Shown here: positions 460 to 31,944 of the stretch, one piece after another
Layout of the letters: every line of letters begins with the position of its first letter
Position numbering within the stretch: the first letter of the stretch is position 1
NCBI GenBank assembly: GCA_016281925.1
Contig: JAEEJP010000113.1
Span: forward strand, 1-32,175
Reading direction: 5' to 3'
Length of the DNA: 32,175 bases
Source of the DNA: Methanomassiliicoccaceae archaeon
Lineage (GTDB): Archaea; Thermoplasmatota; Thermoplasmata; Methanomassiliicoccales; Methanomethylophilaceae
Program-made: the position numbers and the translations under genes
The notes under the pieces: model-generated
What the model was told of the DNA's origin: nothing
The model's input: the letters and a program-made list of their open reading frames with translations, nothing else
Database searches by the model: none

Positions 460-1095
460 TCGGCGGTTGGCGATGAACCTGCGCAGAGCCGGATGGAGGT
501 TCAGAGAGCCCACCACGACCTCGGGGGTGCGGCGCGCGGCATAGCGGTGCAGCAGCGCGGAGGCGACGAGCGACGCGGCGGTATTGCAGATCATGTCGCG
601 CATGGTGTCCATGGGGCTGTACTGCATGTTGATGCCGGTCACCGTATCCACGGCGTACTCCAGAAGCTCCCAGTAGACGCTGAACCCCACCATTATCAGG
701 GCCACGAAAATGGCCAGGGATCTCCCGGCGAAGTCAACCTTCCCGCTCATCACATGATAGCACAGCATGGTGAGGAAAACGCAGGCCGTGACCACCGCGG
801 AAGACAGAGAATGGGTGATGTTGTCGTAGAAATACAGCTCGTCGTACGAGAAATACAGGACACCGAACGCGTGGAGGGCGACCGCGATCAGAATGAGGAC
901 CGTGAACGGGGCGGGAAGGCTGAGGATCCCGAAGCGCTTCATCGCTATCGGGGCGAGACATATGAAACTGCAGAATATCCCGGTGTTCCTCTCGTAATCG
1001 TGGCAGAACCCGTTGAGATAGGCGTGCAGACAGAGGGTCAGCATGGCCGCGAAGACGGCGACGCAGGCTATCTCGTCGTACGGGACCTTCCTCAT
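460..1095 (-). CDS. Polytopic membrane protein (211 aa), ending at CGA; the standard-code ORF continues to TAG at 436
   Basis: MRKVPYDEIACVAVFAAMLTLCL...ALRRFIANR|CGA|GLCAVVK-TAG; ATGA overlap with the upstream gene. Confidence 0.75.
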
Positions 1096-6078: not shown

Positions 6079-7116
6079 TCATCCGGCGTCTTTCAGTATG
6101 AATTCGACCGCATCGGAGAAAGAGACGCCGTTCCCGACCCTGAAAGTCCTGCACCCGAGGCGGCGGCCGAATTCCATGTCCGCATCCGAATCCCCCACCA
6201 TATACGACCTGAGGGGGTTCACAGAATGCTTCCTTATGGCATCCAGCCCCATCCCTATGCGCGGCTTGCGGCATCCGCACTTCTCGTCCGGCCTGTGCGG
6301 GCAGAAGAATATGCCGTCGATGCGGCCCCCGCCGGCCTCGACTGTGCGCCGCAGCTTGGCATGGATCGCGTCCAGCTCCTCCATCCCGAAGTATCCGCGG
6401 CCCAGGCCGGACTGGTTCGTTATCAGGATCACCTTGAAACCGGCGGCGCTGAGCCTTGCGATGCCTTCCGGCACGTCGCCGTACGGAACGAAAAGATCCG
6501 GATCGCTGCAGTACGGAACATTCGGGGCCAGGGTGTCGTCCCTGTCCACGAAGACCGCTCGACTGCCGAACAGCTCCCGCTCCACGATGCCGCACACTAT
6601 GTGCGACGCGCAGAGGTACCCCTCCTGGATGCGGGGGGTCTCTTTGGACGGGATTATGACCGGGACGTCGGCGATATCCCTGAGCTTCCCGCAGTCCCCG
6701 GTGAACGAGATCACCTTGGCTCCGCGGGCGTGCGCCTCCTCGGCCGCCAGAATGACGTTCTCGGAGTTGCCCGAAGTGGAATAGCAGACGGCGACGTCTC
6801 CCGCGCGGCACATGGCCTCGATCTGCCTTTTGAAAACGATGGAGAACGAGTAGTCGTTCCCGATGGCCGTCACCGGGACGATGTTGGAAAGAGCGATCCC
6901 CGGAAGCGCCGGGCGCTCCATGAGGTATCTTCCGGAGAACTCCGCCGCTATATGCGCGGCATCGGCTGAGGAGCCTCCGTTGCCCATGAAATAGGCATGC
7001 CCGCCGTTTCTGAAGGCCTCGGCCAACACATCCGCCGCAGCGCGAATCTGGGCGGGATTTATGCGGGATATTACGCTGGAACTGGTCGCAAGCTGCTCAG
7101 ATATGGGATCACTCAT
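6079..7116 (-). CDS. gmhA-gmhB: GmhA-GmhB fusion: sedoheptulose-7-phosphate isomerase (SIS) plus heptose 1,7-bisphosphate phosphatase (HAD-IIIA); in-frame CGA at the junction (6559-6561)
   Basis: SIS domain MGNGGSSADAAHIAAEFSGRY...CGIVERELFGS|R(CGA)|AVFVDRDDTLAPNVPY...NQSGLGRGYF...CPHRPDEKCGCRKP. Confidence 0.9.
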   Translation of the reverse strand: MSDPISEQLATSSSVISRINPAQIRAAADVLAEAFRNGGHAYFMGNGGSSADAAHIAAEFSGRYLMERPALPGIALSNIVPVTAIGNDYSFSIVFKRQIEAMCRAGDVAVCYSTSGNSENVILAAEEAHARGAKVISFTGDCGKLRDIADVPVIIPSKETPRIQEGYLCASHIVCGIVERELFGSRAVFVDRDDTLAPNVPYCSDPDLFVPYGDVPEGIARLSAAGFKVILITNQSGLGRGYFGMEELDAIHAKLRRTVEAGGGRIDGIFFCPHRPDEKCGCRKPRIGMGLDAIRKHSVNPLRSYMVGDSDADMEFGRRLGCRTFRVGNGVSFSDAVEFILKDAG

Positions 7117-9378: not shown

Positions 9379-10263
9379 ATGCTTCCAGACATCACCATAG
9401 GGATATGCGCGTACAACGAAGCGCAGAACATAGCGCGCTGCGTAAGCTCGATATATTCACAGAAGACGCCGGGATTCCGGGTCAAAGAAGTCATCATAGT
9501 GTCCAGCGGAAGCACGGACGGCACCGACGACATAGTACGCGAGCTCCAGAAAGAGCACGGAGACATCAGTCTGATCGTCCAGAAGAAAAGAGAGGGGAAA
9601 AACTCGGCCATAAACGCATATCTGGACGCTAAGACGTGCGGGCTGGTCGTCATGCTGAACGCGGACAACATTTTCGGCACCGAAGAGTCCCTCCTGCGCC
9701 TCATAGAGCCGTTCGAGGACGAGAAGATGGGGATGGTCGGCGGCCACCCGGTGCCCACCAACAGCAAGGACGACAGGATCGGGTTCGCCGTCCATATGCT
9801 GTGGAGCATGCACCACAACCTCGCCATGATCTACCCCAAAATAGGGGAATTGGTGGCGTTCCGCGACATAGGCACGCGCCTGGCCCTGGACCAGCAGTCC
9901 GACGAGGACCTCATCAGGATGAACCTCGAGAAGGCGGGCTACAGATGCGCCTACGCCCCGGACGCGATAGTCTACAACAGAGGGCCTGAGACCGAGGAGG
10001 ATTTCCTCAAGCAGAGGACCCGCGTGAACATCGGCGAGTGCAACATGAAGAAGAAGTACGATTACGACATCCCTTCATGGAACAGGAAATACGTTCTCAA
10101 AGCCCTGTTCGGAACGGTCCGCGACCTGGGATTCCATCCCCTTAAGATGCTTTATGTCGGCCGCCTGGAGATGAAAGCCCGCTCGGACGCCAAAAAATAC
10201 ATCGAAAACGGGAACTGCGACATGAACATCTGGGACCCGGTCGGCACGACGAAAAAGCTCCGA
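9379..10263 (+). CDS. GT2-family glycosyltransferase (294 aa) ending at CGA 10261-10263; the standard-code ORF runs to 10563
   Basis: MLPDITIGICAYNEAQNIARCVSSIYSQK...MLNADNIF...DPVGTTKKL|CGA|; the tail beyond is antisense to the neighbouring gene. Confidence 0.88.
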
Positions 10264-11286
10264 TCGGACTTTCCTGCCGTCATCCCTTGTCTCGCCCGGG
10301 CCCACCGCGTCCCCGTCGGCGAGCACCGAATTCCTGACGGACGCGCCGGCGCATACCCTGCATCCCCTGCCGATTATGCTGTCTTCTATGGACGCGCCTT
10401 CTATCCTGCTTCCGCCGAGGACCACAACGCGCCTGAGACGGGACCCTATGACTTCGGATCCGCCCATTATCACGGCCGAATCGATGTGGGAATCCCTTGC
10501 AAAAGAGCCTTCCCCCACGAACACCGGGCCCGACGCGGATCCGCCCGATATGCGCGACAGTGAATCCCCGGGCTCCCTGGACGCCATGCACAGATTGGCC
10601 CTGACATAATCCGACGGCCGGCCGACGTCCATCCAGACGCCTTCCAGAGGGTATCCCATGAGCTTCCCGCCGGAGGCTATGATCTCAGGGAAGATCTCCT
10701 TGGAGAAATCGCAGAATCTTCCCGCCGGGATCCTTGCGAGGGCATCCCTGCTGACCACGTAGACGCCGGCGTTTATCAGGTCGGAGAACGTCTCCCCTTC
10801 CTTCATGCCCTCCCTGAACTCCAGTATCGAGCCGTCATCCGCGGTGCGGGCAACCCCGAACTCCCAGGGATTCGGCACCGGGACGAGGGCGACGGTCACC
10901 TCCGCTCCGGATCCGAAATGGCGGTTGACCTCCCCTTTGAGGTCTATGTCCGCGAAAACATCCCCGTTGGAGGCCAGGAAAACCGGATCCAGCCTGTTTT
11001 CCGCGAGTTTCAGCGCGCCCCCGGTTCCCATGGGTTCGCTTTCGTAGGAATACGATATCTTTATCCCCAGATCGGAGCCGTCGCCGAGCGCCTCCTCCAT
11101 CATCTCCGAGCGGTAGCCGCATGCCAGGATTATCTCCTCGATGCCGGCCCTGGCCATGGATCTCATGAGATACCATATGCAGGGCCTCCCGGCCACCGGA
11201 AGTATGGGTTTGGGGCAGCTCTCGGTGAGGGGGCGGAGCCTCGTGCCCTGGCCCCCCACCATTATGACGGCCTGCCGGACCCTCAT
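10264..11286 (-). CDS. Sugar-1-phosphate nucleotidyltransferase (HddC/mannose-1-P guanylyltransferase-like, hexapeptide C-terminus; 340 aa) ending at CGA; the standard-code ORF runs to 10075
   Basis: MRVRQAVIMVGGQGTRLRPLTESCPKPILPVAGRP...GASVRNSVLADGDAVGPGETRDDGRKV|CGA|. Confidence 0.88.
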
Positions 11287-17732: not shown

Positions 17733-18479
17733 ATGAACGAGACCCAGACCGCTCTCCTTTCGATGTACAAGGACATTAAAGAGGTCCTGGAGCGGAACGG
17801 GATAGAATTCTACTGCCATTTCGGTACCGCGCTGGGGGCGGTCAGGCACGGCGGGTTCATCCCTTGGGACGACGACGTGGATTTGGCCGTATGGGAAAGG
17901 GATCTTCCTGATGTGAACAGAGCTCTGGCCGGGGAGCTGGACCCCTCGGAATACTATTACCACATCCCCTCGGCGGACAACCACCCGCACGTCATCTCCC
18001 TGGCGAAGGGGAAGGAAGGCCTGAGGAACAGGGATGCGCCGTTCATAGACATCTTCCCGATATCGGATTATCCCTCGGGGAGGATCAGGCAGACGATCGC
18101 AGACGCCATGATCTGGGGGGACAACATTTCCATTTACGCGCTGGACCGCATCAGAAGCCCGGCCATACACAGGCGCCTGAAATGGACGCATGAAGCGTTC
18201 TACAGGCTGGCCCACATGGCGGCCGGCGGAAAATGCGGCCTGACCACGGTGTATTCCACCGAATTCAAAGGCTACATCTTCAGGAAAGAGGATTACGGCA
18301 GGCCTGTGATGCATGCGTTCGAAGACACCGAGATCCCCCTGCCGCAGGGATGGGACCGCATGCTGGAACATATGTTCGGGGATTATATGACCCCGCCGCC
18401 GGAGGGCCAGCGGAAAGGCGCGGGCGGATTCCCCTGCGGCGCCTGGATCGATTTCGAGGCCGGCTCCGGGAAGAAGCGA
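17733..18479 (+). CDS. licD: LicD-family phosphotransferase/nucleotidyltransferase (248 aa) ending at CGA 18477-18479; the standard-code ORF continues to TAG 18498
   Basis: ERNGIEFYCHFGTALGAVRHGGFIPWDDDVDLAVWERDL...; LicD motif GTALGAVRHGGFIPWDDDVD. Confidence 0.9.
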
Positions 18480-21301: not shown

Positions 21302-22921
21302 ATGGCGAAGGAGATCTCTGTCGCTCTGATAGACGGCTACATCGACGATCCGGCGGCGCTCGGCGTGCCTCCTTACATATCGCCGATGATACGCTCCATC
21401 GCCGGAGCCGCCCTGGATGCGGGAGCCGACAGAGTGGAATACGTCTCCATAGACATGATCCGCAAGGGAAAAAAGATCCCGGACGCATCTGTCACTGTAG
21501 TGCTGTCCGGAAACACCGTCCCCGGTAAGTACCTCCGTTCGATGCCCATGTCCTCGAAAGAGCTGGAAAGCATCTTCCCCCGCCTGAAAGGATGGCGCAT
21601 GATCAGCGGATCGGCGGCGGACACTGCGGCCGCGGAGAAATTCGATTTTATCGTAAGAAAAGACCCTGCCGCATCCCTGTACGACGGGATGACAGGGAAA
21701 GAAGTAGGAGAGAGGCCCCGCACTCTTGACGAATGGAACAGATGGATGCTCCTGGGAGCGGATATCGTCGCTCAGCACCAGGATTTCCCGCAGCCGCTGG
21801 TGGCCGAGATAGAATCCTACCGCGGATGCCACAGATACTCCACGGGGGGATGCTCCTATTGCATAGAGCCCCTCAAAGGCAGGCCGCTGACCAGAAAGCC
21901 CGGGGACATCCTCGCCGAAGCCCGGAAGCTCAGGGATATCGGGGTAGCCAACATAAGAGTCGGAGGCCAGACATGCATAGTATCCTACGGCTCGGACGAC
22001 AGCTCCCCCGTCCCGAGGCCCGACCCCTCCGCGGTGAAGGAGCTTTTCGGAGGGCTCTCTTCCATGGGTTTCGATACCGTCCACGTGGACAACGCCGACG
22101 CGGCGGTCATCGCCACATACCCCGGCGAATCGCGCGAAGTCCTGGAGACCATCGCGGAATGCTGCACCGACGGGAACGTGCTCGCCTTGGGCATGGAATC
22201 AGCCGATCCCAGGGTGTACATGGAGAACAACCTGAACAGCACATCGGAGCAGGTTATGGCGGCCGTCAGGCTCATAAACGAGATAGGAAGCGCGAGAGGC
22301 CCCAGAGGGATGCCGAAGCTCCTCCCCGGGATAAACATAATATGCGGCCTGGACGGCGAGACCGCGGCCACCTACCGGATGGATCTGGACTTCCTCAGGA
22401 AGATCAGGGACGAGAATCTGATGGTCAGGCGCATAAACATCCGCCAGGTGCTTCCCGTAAGGCGCGAATTCAGCGTCAGAGTGGACCAGAGAAGGTTCAA
22501 GAGATTCAAGGAAGACGTCCGCTCGGAAATAGACCGGGCCATGCTCGAACGCATCGCGCCGTACGGCACCGTCCTCAGGGATGTCTACGCCGAGCTCAAC
22601 GACGGCAACATGACTTTCGGAAGGCAGATTGGCTCCTATCCGCTTCTGGTCGGGATTCCCTATAAAGTAGAGACCGAGAAATTCTATGACGTTTTCATAA
22701 CCGATTGGGGGTTCCGCTCGATTACCGGGGTGACATATCCGTTCGACATCAATAGCATGCCTCTCCGGGCTTTGGAATCCCTCCCCGGGATCGGAAAGAA
22801 AAGGGCGGCGAAACTGGTCCTCGAAAGGCCCTTCTCCGGCCCGGACGATCTTGCGGAAGCCATAGGGGACCCTTCGGTGACCGAAAAACTGCTGGAGATG
22901 ATCGGGCCCGCGATAGAGCGA
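21302..22921 (+). CDS. Radical SAM protein with C-terminal HhH (COG1031-like; 539 aa) ending at CGA 22919-22921; the standard-code ORF runs to 23152
   Basis: YRGCHRYSTGGCSYCIEPLKGRP...; C-terminal LESLPGIGKKRAAKLVLERPF HhH; ...MIGPAIE|CGA|. Confidence 0.88.
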
Positions 22922-23542: not shown

Positions 23543-24592
23543 ATGGATGCGAGACTTTCAGCCAAATTCCCGTTCCTGAAGGAAGCCTCCGGATTCGCGG
23601 CGGAGAACTCCGCAGATCTGGGTTCCCTCATGACCTCGGAGAGCTACTCCCCAGCCCGCGCCCGCGGGAAGGAAAGGGTGCTGGACGCCATAAACTCGGG
23701 CGAAGTCACGTACAAACCCCTGATGAGGGATTACGACTGCCTCATGGAGGTCCTGTCGTATCCGTACGCCAGGATTCTGGTCTCTGTGATATGGGACAGA
23801 TATCTCACCAAAAGATACGCGCTCGGGGAGGCCGTCCGCATGAACAAAGTGCTCGCCGACGAAGACCGCCAGACTGTGCTGGAGGTCTCCGATGAGCTGG
23901 GATTCAAAGCGTCGACGGACGGGGACGGCATCATGCGCATGAAATTCCCGGACTATCTCATGCTTTCCAGCAGGATGAAAAGCGTGGACTGGAAGCTGAT
24001 CAACAGCGACGTCCGCTCCGGGATCGTTTTCCTTCCCAGAGAGAAATTCAACCGCCTGATGCAGAACGCCCTGCAGGACAAGATAGAGTCCGAGCTGCCC
24101 CTCAGGCCCCCGGAGGAGTTCCTCCCGTACCTGCAGAAGGATTGCGACGAAGTGAGAGCGGCATTGGAGGATGCCAAGATGAAGATGAGCCCGACCCGCG
24201 GGGAAGGGATGAAAGGCGAATACCTCCCGCCATGCGTCACGCATCTTCTGGAGATGGCGATGAAAGGCATCAACCTGCCCCACAGCGGAAGGTTCGCCCT
24301 GGTGACGTTCATGTCCGCCCTGGGGCTGGATTACGACGGCATCATCAGGATCTTCGCCGAATCCCCGGATTTCGACGAATCCAAATCGGAATACCAGATT
24401 AAGCACATCACGGGGGAGCTGTACGGAAGGGATGCGTATACCCCGCCGGAATGCAAGACCATGAAGACTGAAGGGCTCTGCTTCGAGCCGGACGCCCTGT
24501 GCGCGAAGATAAACCATCCCCTGAACTATTACAGGATAAAATCCAGGGGCCCCCGGAAAACGGATGCCGGGGCCCCCGGAAACAAAGCCTGA
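23543..24592 (+). CDS. priL: Archaeal DNA primase large subunit PriL
   Basis: MDARLSAKFPFLKEASGFAAEN...LPPCVTHLLEMAMKGINLPHSGRFALVTFMSALGLDYDGIIRIF...CKTMKTEGLC; conserved Cys of the Fe-S domain. Confidence 0.93.
   Translation: MDARLSAKFPFLKEASGFAAENSADLGSLMTSESYSPARARGKERVLDAINSGEVTYKPLMRDYDCLMEVLSYPYARILVSVIWDRYLTKRYALGEAVRMNKVLADEDRQTVLEVSDELGFKASTDGDGIMRMKFPDYLMLSSRMKSVDWKLINSDVRSGIVFLPREKFNRLMQNALQDKIESELPLRPPEEFLPYLQKDCDEVRAALEDAKMKMSPTRGEGMKGEYLPPCVTHLLEMAMKGINLPHSGRFALVTFMSALGLDYDGIIRIFAESPDFDESKSEYQIKHITGELYGRDAYTPPECKTMKTEGLCFEPDALCAKINHPLNYYRIKSRGPRKTDAGAPGNKA
24546..24584. repeat. Direct GC-rich repeat / hairpin at the 3' end of priL
   Basis: ggggcccccggaaaac (24546-24561) and ggggcccccggaaac (second copy, about 24569-24583), each internally palindromic. 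Confidence 0.6.
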
Positions 24593-25246
24593 TCAGCTCT
24601 TCCTGTCCTCTCCGCAGAGGTTCCGCCATGTTATGATGGCCCTCTGGATGGCGGTGAGGTTCCCTACGACGGCGAACCAGAGCATCATTATCTCCAGCCA
24701 GTTCAGTTCGAACCCGGCTATCCCGAACGATCCGAGCCCGAACTGCATCATGACGAACTGTATGATCGGGAACAGCGTGGAAAGGACGACCCTGTCCGCG
24801 CGCCCCAGCAGCCCCGCATAAAGGCGCGGAGCCCCGATGGCCTGTGCCTGCGTCCCCATATACGAAGTCAGCAGGACGCCCACCAGAGCGGCCATCCCGA
24901 GATACGGGTCGCACCAGGCGCTCACCGCCACCCCGCCGATCATGAACACGTCCGCGTATCTGTCGAACACATGGTCCAGATAATCGCCTTTGCGGGAAGC
25001 TTTCCCGGCCAGTTTGGCCACTTTGCCGTCCAGCGCGTCGAAGTATCCCGACACGATCACTGATACGGCGCCCGCTATCAGCAGATATTCCTTCCCTTCG
25101 AACCCGCTGAAATAGAATATCACGCCGCACAGCAGCGCGATTATGAGCCCTATCCACGATATCAGATTCGGATTGACGTTTATCAGCCTCTTGGCCACCG
25201 GGGCCAAGGCGAAGTCTGCCCTCGCTCTCTGTCCGTCAAGAACCAT
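24593..25246 (-). CDS. CDP-alcohol phosphatidyltransferase (archaetidylinositol-phosphate synthase-like)
   Basis: DALDGKVAKLAGKASRKGDYLDHVFDRYADV, CDP-alcohol PT motif. Confidence 0.88.
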   Translation of the reverse strand: MVLDGQRARADFALAPVAKRLINVNPNLISWIGLIIALLCGVIFYFSGFEGKEYLLIAGAVSVIVSGYFDALDGKVAKLAGKASRKGDYLDHVFDRYADVFMIGGVAVSAWCDPYLGMAALVGVLLTSYMGTQAQAIGAPRLYAGLLGRADRVVLSTLFPIIQFVMMQFGLGSFGIAGFELNWLEIMMLWFAVVGNLTAIQRAIITWRNLCGEDRKS

Positions 25247-27914: not shown

Positions 27915-28664
27915 TCGCTCCCTGAATTCCGACATGAGATTGTCGCATATGCATTCGACGGTCCTGCGGCGGCACTCCGAGGACGAGAATGCGCTTTTTA
28001 TCCTTCCGATCTCCTCTTCTTTCCCGCGGAGCTCGCCGATGAAACGGATGATGTTCTCCAGAGCCCTGGTCATCTCGTCGGAGATGGGGACGCTGGCCGT
28101 CTTCGAAGTGCGGGACAGCGGATTGAGATCTATGGAGATCACGGTCTTCCCCATGGATACGAGAGCCTCGGCGCGGTCTCCGTCCTCGATCGGCACAAGG
28201 ATCACGTCGCTGGAGAATATCCCCTCGCCGGTGCATAGGGCGCGGTCATGGTTCAGCCCCTGGATCCTGCGGTCCGGATCCCTCCCGAGAACCTTCTTAG
28301 CCCCTTTGGATTCGAGATAGGATATGATGTCTTCCATCCTCTCCGGGGTCCTGTGGAAAAGGTTGACCTCGATTTTCGCCGGGACCGCTTCGGCGAGCCT
28401 TATCAGATTGTCCGCGTCCAATGCGGCGGCGTTGCCGTTCACGCAGACCACCGGGTTTCTGGCCCCCAAAAGGAAAGCTGCGGCGGCTTTCTCCGCGTCT
28501 ATGGCGGCCTCCGTGCTCTTTTCGCCCATGAGATAATCGTAAGCTTCCCCGCGGCCGTGGGATATCAGGCCGGTAGGCGTGACCAAGCCTCTCTCCACCA
28601 TCTCGGCCAGACGCTCCCTGGTCACCAGGGATCTGTATCTGGGATGATCCTTCGGGATTTCCAT
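27915..28664 (-). CDS. 4-phosphopantoate--beta-alanine ligase (archaeal phosphopantothenate synthetase; 249 aa) ending at CGA; the standard-code ORF runs to 27900
   Basis: MEIPKDHPRYRSLVTRERLAEMVERGLVTPTGLISHGRGEAYDYLMGEKSTEAA...NNLMSEFRE-like end |CGA| four nt before the ahcY ATG. Confidence 0.9.
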
Positions 28665-28775: not shown

Positions 28776-29504
28776 ATGCCTGAAATCCGCATAGTCGTCG
28801 TCGGAGCGAAATTCGAAGGCAACGTAGGCGCCATAGCACGGTCCATGGCGAACTTCGATGTCAAAGAGCTGTATCTCGTGAATCCCTGCGAGCTCGGGGA
28901 CGACGCATACCGCAGATCCAAGCACGGATCCCAGATCCTTGATGACGTCCATATCGTCACCAGCTTCGAAGACGCGGTGGAAGGCTGCTTCCTGGTGGTC
29001 GGGACCAGCGGAGTAACCACCAAAGGAGACAGGAACTACACCCGCGTCCCCGTCCCGGTGCGCGAATTCGCGGAGCACTGCAGAGGCTATCCCGAAAAGA
29101 TAGCCATCGTGTTCGGAAGGGAGGATATCGGCCTCCTCCAGGAGGAGCTGAACCTCTGCGACGTCCTGATTACGATACCTGCCGGAGAAGAATACCCTAT
29201 CCTCAATCTTTCCCACGCGGCCAACATAGTGATGTACGAGATATTCCAGGCGGAGCATTCGAGCAGGAGGGCGGAACCTGCGGACAGGGGCGAGAAAGAG
29301 CGCATGTTCGGGTTCTTCTCCGACCTTATGGATGCCATAGACTATCCTCCGAACAGAAGGGAAATGACCCGCATAATGTTCAGGAGGATGATGGGGCGCG
29401 CCATACCGACGAAATACGAGTACAACACCATCATGGGCGTCTTCGGCGACGCTTCGAAGATAATCAGATACGGGAAACCCTGGGAAAAAGACAGGAAGGA
29501 GCGA
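28776..29504 (+). CDS. trmJ: tRNA (cytidine/uridine-2'-O-)-methyltransferase TrmJ (242 aa) ending at CGA 29502-29504; the standard-code ORF runs to 29648
   Basis: MPEIRIVVVGAKFEGNVGAIARSMANFDVKELYLVNP...IVFGREDIGLLQEELNLCDVLITIPAGEEYPILNLSHAANIVMYE...KPWEKDRKE|CGA|. Confidence 0.92.
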
Positions 29505-29515
29505 GGAGACCCCCG

Positions 29516-31078
29516 TCGCCCCTTGCGGATTTCATTGCGGCCTGGGAACGTGTTGTACCTGTCCGGCCGCCATCCGGGGGCTATCCCTTCCGCCGCCTCT
29601 TCAGCGGTGATGACGGCATCCCCGTTGTCGATGTCTATTATCCTGTAACGGCCGCTCCCCATCCCTAGCTCTTTCATGTAGCTGAGCTGGCGGAGGCCTC
29701 CGCGGCTCTCTATGCGTTCCACCATCTCCTTCCCTCCGTTCTCCGGAAGGGAATAGACAATATCCACGCAGGCCATGTCCGCCGCCAGAATATCGAGGGA
29801 AGCCGCTATGCCTATGTCCGGGGTGACAACCGGCTCAGCCATGGTGCCTTCGCAATCGCATGACACAGACATATTTCTCATGACGTTCACGAAGCATATG
29901 CCGGGAGAGAAATGGTCCACCACCGATTTCGCCGATTCCGTCATCCTTTCCATGAGCTCGTCCCCGGTTATGGACCACATATCGGAGGAGCCTTCTGCTG
30001 TATGTATCTCCTTCTTTCCGATGCGCCCGTCCGCGCACCCTATGCCGATGTTCTTGTTTGATCCGCCGAAACCGCCCATGTCATGGCCTTTGAAATGCGT
30101 CAGCACGACCATCGAATCGTAATTCTCGAAGCCCTTCCCGACATGCATCTCTCTGAACCACTTTCCGCCTTCCACCGGAAATGTAATGGCTCCGTCCTCG
30201 TCTGCGATGTCCACAGGGCAGAACGTCCACCCGTTGGTCCTCAGAGTTTCGCGGTGGCTCTCCGTCGTATAGCGGTCGCCTTCGTAATATGTGTTGGTCT
30301 CCGCTATATGGGCGCCCGGCATCGATTCCGAAATGAGCTCCCTGATCCACGGCCTCGGTATGATGTTCGGCCCTTCCGCCTCGCCGGTATGGACTTTGAC
30401 GCATATCCTGCCCTTCAGAGTCCCTCTGACCCTTTCAAAAACCTTTTTCAGCCCTTCCGGCGACAGATCGCGCGTGAAATATACATCCGATGCGTCCCCT
30501 GCGCGGGGCGCTTGGCCGCCCTCTTTCCCATTGCCCTGCATGTCCTGCCCTTCTGCGCTCCCGTCGCATCCGCGCTTGACGACGCGCATGGGCCTGGCCA
30601 TCACCGACAGGTACTCCGGACGGCCGATGCCTTCCTCGGGAATGCGCCGGACCTCTTCGAAGCCGTGCTTGGCGTAGAATGCTATGGCGCGGCTGTTATA
30701 CGGGTTCACCACCAGCTCCGCTGCGGAGCATCCTTCGCTCCTGCCGGATTCCATTATGTATTCCATCGCCAGGGAGCTGAGGCCGGAGCCGCGGAATTCC
30801 GGAAGAAGATACAGCTTGCTTATTTCGAGGGTCTTCCCATCCGCTCTGAATGAGAGGTATCCCGCCCTCACACCCCGGAATATGATGTAGAAGAACCTGT
30901 ACCCCTGGGAGATGTGGTCTCTGACGGTCTCCGGGCCCATCCAATCCGGATAGAACTCGTCCACGCGCTTCCTGCCTCCGTCCACCAGAGGCGCGTAGAT
31001 CTCCACCCACATGGGATACGCGAAATGCGAGAGCTCTTCCGCCCCTTCCGGCCCGATAGGCTCGAACGACGCTTCCAT
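29516..31078 (-). CDS. GNAT acetyltransferase - DUF362 fusion (520 aa) ending at CGA; the standard-code ORF runs to 29342
   Basis: N-term LYLLPEFRGSGLSSLAMEYIMESGR...NPYNSRAIAFYAKHGFEEV (GNAT); C-term VKVHTGEAEGPNIIPRPWIRELI...THFKGHDMGGFGGSNKNIGIGCADGRIGKKEIH (DUF362); ends NEIRKG|CGA|. Confidence 0.85.
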
Positions 31079-31122: not shown

Positions 31123-31944
31123 TCGGCTCCAGACCGAAAAGAAAACCACGATTTTGGTGTCTTCCCTGTCGTTCCTGCGGACTATGTCCGGGACTACCCC
31201 CGTCATGGCGGCCACTTTGTCGTAGATCGCATCGGATTCGGCGGCGCCCAGCTCCGAACTGACGGCCACGACGATCCTGCCCACGGGATCCACCACCGCC
31301 GGGACGGAGGAATCCACGGCTTTCTCTATCGCCGTTATGGGATTCAGCTCCGAAACATAGGCGAAAGTGTAGATCTTATCGAAAAACGTGGAGTAGAACG
31401 GCCCGGAAAGCATGTCAGCGATGCATTTCACGGTGAAAATGATGGAATGGGAGACCATCTTGAATATGCTGGGGGCTTTGGCGTCGGGGCACATCCTTAG
31501 GATCGCGTCGCCGTCGAGGAGATACATGCGGTCCGAACTGTCGGAAACCCTGCTCAGGACCTTCTGGGCCCTGCTCCGCCTGTCGGATTCGAAGGACATA
31601 GGCAGGCCTATCACCGAGATCGTCCTGCATCCGCATTCCTTGGCGCAGTCCAGGATCACCGGCACCATCCCGGTTCCCGTGCCGCCGCCCAGCATGGAGA
31701 ACACGACCGCCGAGCGGTAGCCTCTGAGCGCCTCTTTGATGGAACCCATGTTCTCGAAGGCTATCGAGAACGCCAGCTCCACGTCGCCGCGGCACCCCTG
31801 CATGTCCGGGGGAGCCAACGGTATCCCGCTGGAGCCGTTGGAATTGATCAGAAGGACCGGATATTCCAGCACCGGCTCCGATTCGGCGAAAATGCGGCAT
31901 CCGGCGCCTCCGCAGGCCACTATAAGGACATCGCGCATGCGCAT
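31123..31944 (-). CDS. Divergent FtsZ/tubulin-superfamily protein (273 aa) ending at CGA; the standard-code ORF runs to 30868
   Basis: MRMRDVLIVACGGAGCRIFAES...VVFSMLGGGTGTGMVPVILDCAKECGCRTISVIGLPMSFES; tubulin signature GGGTGTG; ends KIVVFFSVWS|CGA|. Confidence 0.82.

Follow-up and report, generated by a model that had tools for sequence, protein, structure and literature searches.

The convergent gene pair and its surroundings

The window considered here, which is the whole stretch of 32,175 nucleotides that was analysed, carries the hexamer CGATCG at positions 10261-10266, at the tail-to-tail junction of a GT2 glycosyltransferase gene on the forward strand and a nucleotidyltransferase gene on the reverse strand (Table 1). 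The GT2 gene closes with the codons AAG CTC CGA and the nucleotidyltransferase gene with AAA GTC CGA. The original prediction was that the two convergent genes share this hexamer as a back-to-back double stop, and this claim held, as both genes end in CGA. Two accompanying claims were also confirmed. The ORFs read with the standard code, 9379-10563 (+) and 11370-10075 (-), have tails overlapping by 489 nt, close to the 490 nt that had been estimated, and the hexamer TGATCA elsewhere in the window ends the priL and CDP-alcohol phosphotransferase genes in the same layout, with TGA as the stop.

The junction was compared with two GenBank relatives, RGIG6908 (L153), a MAG of the family Methanomethylophilaceae from the sheep rumen, and SIG9 (L154). 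The homologous proteins are not extended past the CGA. In RGIG6908 both terminate with CGA at the homologous codon (TKKV-CGA in the GT2 protein and KV-CGA in the nucleotidyltransferase), while the nucleotidyltransferase homolog of SIG9 terminates with TGA at the same codon. The palindrome itself is not conserved. The two stops of RGIG6908 are separated by a 2-base gap and the junction reads CGA-GG-TCG; therefore, the conserved unit is the CGA stop rather than the hexamer. The reading of CGA as a stop is thus supported, and it is not confined to this locus but applies to the entire genome.

Most genes of the window have no in-frame CGA at all. In the long ORFs that do contain it (radical SAM, SpoU methyltransferase, DUF362, tubulin-like, LicD and others), CGA lies mostly near the tail and adjoins an over-long extension. 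The Pfam domains of these genes finish upstream of CGA, and for PPS_PS and LicD the whole profile fits before it.

Table 1. Genes and codons of the window related to the use of CGA (positions are those of the window)
Feature	Position	Strand	Evidence or remark
Unnamed gene, CGA end 460-462	460..1095	-	Codon scan
CGA between gmhA and gmhB/hisB-like genes, one frame, no start codon just after	6559..6561	-	Candidate read-through; same CGA in RGIG6908
GT2 glycosyltransferase gene, 294 aa	9379..10263	+	PF00535 at residues 6-142
CGA stop codon of the GT2 gene	10261..10263	+	CGA also at the homologous C-terminus in RGIG6908
CGA stop codon of the nucleotidyltransferase gene	10264..10266	-	CGA in RGIG6908, TGA in SIG9
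NDP-sugar nucleotidyltransferase gene, 340 aa	10264..11286	-	PF00483 and hexapeptide domain, ending at residue 329
LicD gene, CGA end 18477-18479	17733..18479	+	PF04991 complete, residues 20-216
Radical SAM gene (21302-22921), CGA end	22919..22921	+	Codon scan and Pfam
TGATCA double stop, standard-code counterpart	24590..24595	both	priL (+) / CDP-alcohol phosphotransferase (-)
Phosphopantothenate/pantothenate synthetase gene, CGA end 27915-27917	27915..28664	-	PF02006 complete (176/176), residues 65-239 of 249
SpoU methyltransferase gene, CGA end 29502-29504	28776..29504	+	Codon scan and Pfam
GNAT/DUF362 gene, CGA end 29516-29518	29516..31078	-	Codon scan and Pfam
Tubulin/FtsZ-like gene, CGA end 31123-31125	31123..31944	-	Codon scan and Pfam

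CGA inside genes and at gene ends

The behaviour of CGA was followed in about 1.5 Mb of the 1.96-Mb genome (122 contigs, 86% complete), using a codon-bias coding score trained with CGA excluded from the model. Wherever 30 codons gave a strong coding signal, the next 30 in-frame codons were scored as coding or non-coding. The sequence following CGA was non-coding in 93.5% of cases (n = 201), similar to TGA (91.7%, n = 639) and TAA (76.8%, n = 82), while for all 60 other sense codons the value did not exceed 25%. TAG gave a mixed result, as is expected from the use of pyrrolysine; tRNA-Pyl is encoded. An in-frame TAG is present inside apparently conserved genes at many loci, e.g. in a HisD-like gene (L127, frame 0 +, codon 1235), which fits a wide use of pyrrolysine.

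When genes are cut at CGA, 1,301 genes are obtained, of which 851 end with TGA, 277 with CGA, 79 with TAA and 41 with TAG, the remaining 53 running into a contig end. The CGA-ended genes, about a fifth of gene ends, are scattered over 105 of 132 stretches, and 96 of the read-through tails past CGA would extend more than 60 nt into another gene. Inside genes, in-frame CGA is found at about 4 sites in the 420,000 codons covered. Candidates in L059, L131 and L132 were rejected as resembling shadow frames or unclear.

The junctions of CGA-ended genes have their own features. The commonest junction of codirectional CGA genes is the stop-start overlap CGATG (23 of 98). Among convergent pairs abutting exactly in the 1.5 Mb, nine share CGATCG (one each in L021, L087, L110, L112 and the window, two each in L044 and L075), one shares TGATCA and none is a mixed CGA/TGA pair, while other gap lengths are represented by about one pair each. 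The CGATCG pairing exceeds chance. The base next after the stop is T for 146 of 277 CGA ends and 215 of 851 TGA ends; with overlaps and double stops excluded, the difference persists (28% vs 18%, Fisher p 0.002). An abutting pair places T after both stops, and it can be supposed that this explains the recurrence of CGATCG.

The relatives follow the same pattern. The roughly 41,000 aligned codons from 25 same-genus genomes, RGIG6908 and SIG9 contain no in-frame CGA, against 21 in 3,347 codons of three genomes of other families. It should be taken into account that, because the reference proteins stop at CGA, the count leaves out positions homologous to a CGA of this genome and covers the others. 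At identical C-termini, TGA and CGA are exchanged among relatives, and independent GenBank MAGs and single-contig genomes show an agreeing pattern. CGA is nearly absent within genes and is interchangeable with TGA at homologous gene ends. A subclade including G003, G007, G009 and others avoids CGA and retains the CGA of the release factor gene described below, yet it has almost no CGA gene ends, although the sample is small.

Three places besides the release factor gene may need CGA to be read through, as inferred from the sequence. At the gmhA/gmhB junction of the window, read-through could give a GmhA-GmhB fusion. The two others are an in-frame CGA at the junction of MrcB-like and 3-methyladenine DNA glycosylase genes (L114, frame 0 -, codon 1233) and one within a radical SAM gene (L129, frame 2 -, codon 1747). 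The gene names at these two places come from reading the sequence, and each was seen in one genome only.

The release factor aRF1 and tRNA-Arg(UCG)

The gene of the archaeal release factor aRF1 (L001) contains a single in-frame CGA, at codon 81 of 413. This codon is CGA in all 16 loci of the genus covering the position and, when a pattern search is added to the loci, in 22 of 23 genomes of the genus; outside the genus but within the family, 7 of 64 have CGA there. Among the arginine columns of aRF1, CGA occurs only at codon 81. The codon preceding it ends with T in 15 of 15 sequences, vs 9% T-ending codons overall, and the following base is always C. The reading frame is continuous through CGA81, without a +1 frameshift, and in the aRF1 tree CGA81 is found in both of the lineages that part first within the genus. 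The exceptional genome, G039 (G039:C35:56477-56545), which is 87% complete, has CGC at this codon and also lacks a strong match to tRNA-Arg(UCG).

The NIKS and YxCxxxF motifs of aRF1 are intact. The genus and most of the family have Met at residue 68 (a few members of the family have Leu, Lys or Arg there), whereas all matched genomes from the order's remaining families carry Arg, as do the solved chains of human, Haloferax-like (4af1) and 3agk proteins. In simulations of human eRF1, a first-position C carries a penalty of about 6 kcal/mol, which the R68A substitution is predicted to reduce to 1-2 kcal/mol (PMC5681627). The replacement of Tyr56 by Gln was considered as a genus-specific switch and rejected, the change being common to sister genera. 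Neither the loss of Arg68 nor the Gln56 change is sufficient for a CGA stop, because both are common to sister genera in which no such use of CGA has been shown; Met68 would therefore be a precondition and not a trigger. The arginine codons of the GGQ motif are mainly CGT and AGG across the family and give little information on CGA.

A strong match to tRNA-Arg(UCG) was found in 20 of 31 genomes of the genus. In all 13 distinct sequences position 31:39 is unpaired (A.A or C.A), which leaves an anticodon stem of 4 bp, the rest of which covaries; in other genera this position is paired. A sequence-pattern search yielded no tRNA-Arg(UCG) in the G003/G007 subclade, though a weaker model match may be the ortholog. 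As the tRNA is still encoded, it cannot be ruled out that CGA is partly read as arginine.

Proposed mechanism, alternatives and known systems

It is highly probable that this genus of host-associated Methanomassiliicoccales, methane-forming archaea of the gut, uses CGA as a translation stop, although the evidence comes from sequence, without protein, ribosome-profiling or RNA data. The factor releasing at CGA is probably aRF1, an inference not supported by protein data. Through the loss of Arg68 (Met in this genus), the NIKS loop that normally rejects a first-position cytosine would be loosened, and aRF1 would read CGA besides UGA. CAA and CAG would remain sense codons, as strong tRNAs would outcompete aRF1 there, while CGA would be served only by tRNA-Arg(UCG), whose defective anticodon stem is inferred to make it a weak competitor.

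By analogy to prfB, CGA81 of the aRF1 gene is likely to be an autoregulatory switch; the response to the level of aRF1 is also an inference. CGA81 would sit in a leaky context, with C after CGA. At a high level of aRF1, translation would terminate early at CGA81, and at a low level tRNA-Arg(UCG) would insert arginine there, giving full-length aRF1. The explanation as a whole, comprising the CGA stop, release by aRF1 and autoregulation, seems likely.

Of the alternatives, the most durable, though unlikely, is that CGA is unassigned and nearly untranslated, so that ribosomes stall there because no usable tRNA is at hand, and Pelota-type rescue factors, not aRF1, free them. It is favoured by the defective anticodon stem of the sole cognate tRNA, by the stalling of ribosomes at rare CGA codons in yeast and Neurospora, and by the premature termination that eRF1 causes at rare codons (PMC6755126). 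However, CGA closes a fifth of genes, and rescue is too costly for such a number; the conserved CGA and following C in the gene of aRF1 itself make sense only if aRF1 reads CGA. Besides, a search with the shared eRF1_2 domain revealed no Pelota in this genome (86% complete). A second, Pelota-like match of the eRF1 family is missing in G000, G001 and G018, many other genomes of the genus being weakly positive; Pelota has perhaps been lost or has diverged.

It is less plausible still that the code is standard and that C-to-U editing of mRNA turns the terminal CGA into UGA. CGA is indeed one C-to-U step from UGA and mimics TGA in its position, but such editing would have to act specifically at hundreds of sites, with an editor of its own, and in-frame CGA would still have to be avoided elsewhere; there are no RNA data. 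The view that CGA is simply one more rare codon for arginine, the pattern arising from codon bias, assembly error or gene-finding bias, can draw on the rarity of CGG and CGT in this genome but is practically excluded, since the sequence after these two codons is non-coding in only 16-21% of cases vs 93.5% for CGA, the coding model left CGA out, and the independent GenBank MAGs and single-contig genomes concur.

Under the reading of CGA as a stop released by aRF1, this appears to be the first reassignment of a sense codon to stop in a cellular genome, as far as the searched literature goes. That literature contained no report of archaeal sense-to-stop reassignment, but most subscription journals and preprints were outside it and a report may have been overlooked; CGA goes unmentioned in two papers on genomes of the order (PMC5011839, PMC10804542). 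The bolder joint claim, which we also consider probable, is that here, for the first time in cellular genomes, a sense codon has become a stop through relaxed first-position reading by aRF1, with arginine inserted at a few sites and self-regulation at CGA81. In practice, when the genus is annotated under the standard code, about a fifth of proteins, judging by the genome read here, receive false tails and artefactual overlaps. If the explanation is true, the genus offers a natural experiment on the rejection of first-position cytosine by release factors, the Arg68 prediction simulated for eRF1 appears in nature, and autoregulation of a release factor via its own codon is suggested to have arisen independently in archaea.

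Several known systems resemble parts of this picture. The pyrrolysine code belongs to the same order, and the genome studied has both tRNA-Pyl and many in-frame TAG codons, but there TAG becomes sense, whereas here CGA becomes a stop. Bacterial reassignments of AGG, CGA and CGG to other amino acids involve the same labile arginine codon family (PMC8629427); they are, however, sense-to-sense changes, and sense-to-stop terms are absent from that paper. The tRNAs of the extended superwobble hypothesis likewise have a broken pair leaving a 4-bp anticodon stem (PMC13092985), but the hypothesis concerns C34 tRNAs on A-ending codons, unlike the U34 tRNA described here (anticodon UCG), which is cognate to CGA. 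The bacterial RF2 gene prfB also has an early in-frame stop read by the factor itself (PMC12421855); it relies on UGA and a programmed +1 frameshift, whereas in the aRF1 gene the codon is CGA, the frame is continuous and read-through as arginine is proposed.

The nearest precedents are found in organelles, where UUA and UCA have become stops in peDinoflagellate plastids and UUA, UUG, UCA and UCG in green algal mitochondria (PMC12574857); the plastid case was described in 2025 as the first sense-to-stop change outside mitochondria (PMC12574857). In these systems too the codon is missing from gene bodies and is found at homologous C-termini, and an altered release factor has been proposed (PMC12574857). 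The present case differs in concerning a cellular archaeal genome with an omnipotent aRF1, a codon with a first-position C and a cognate tRNA that is still encoded.
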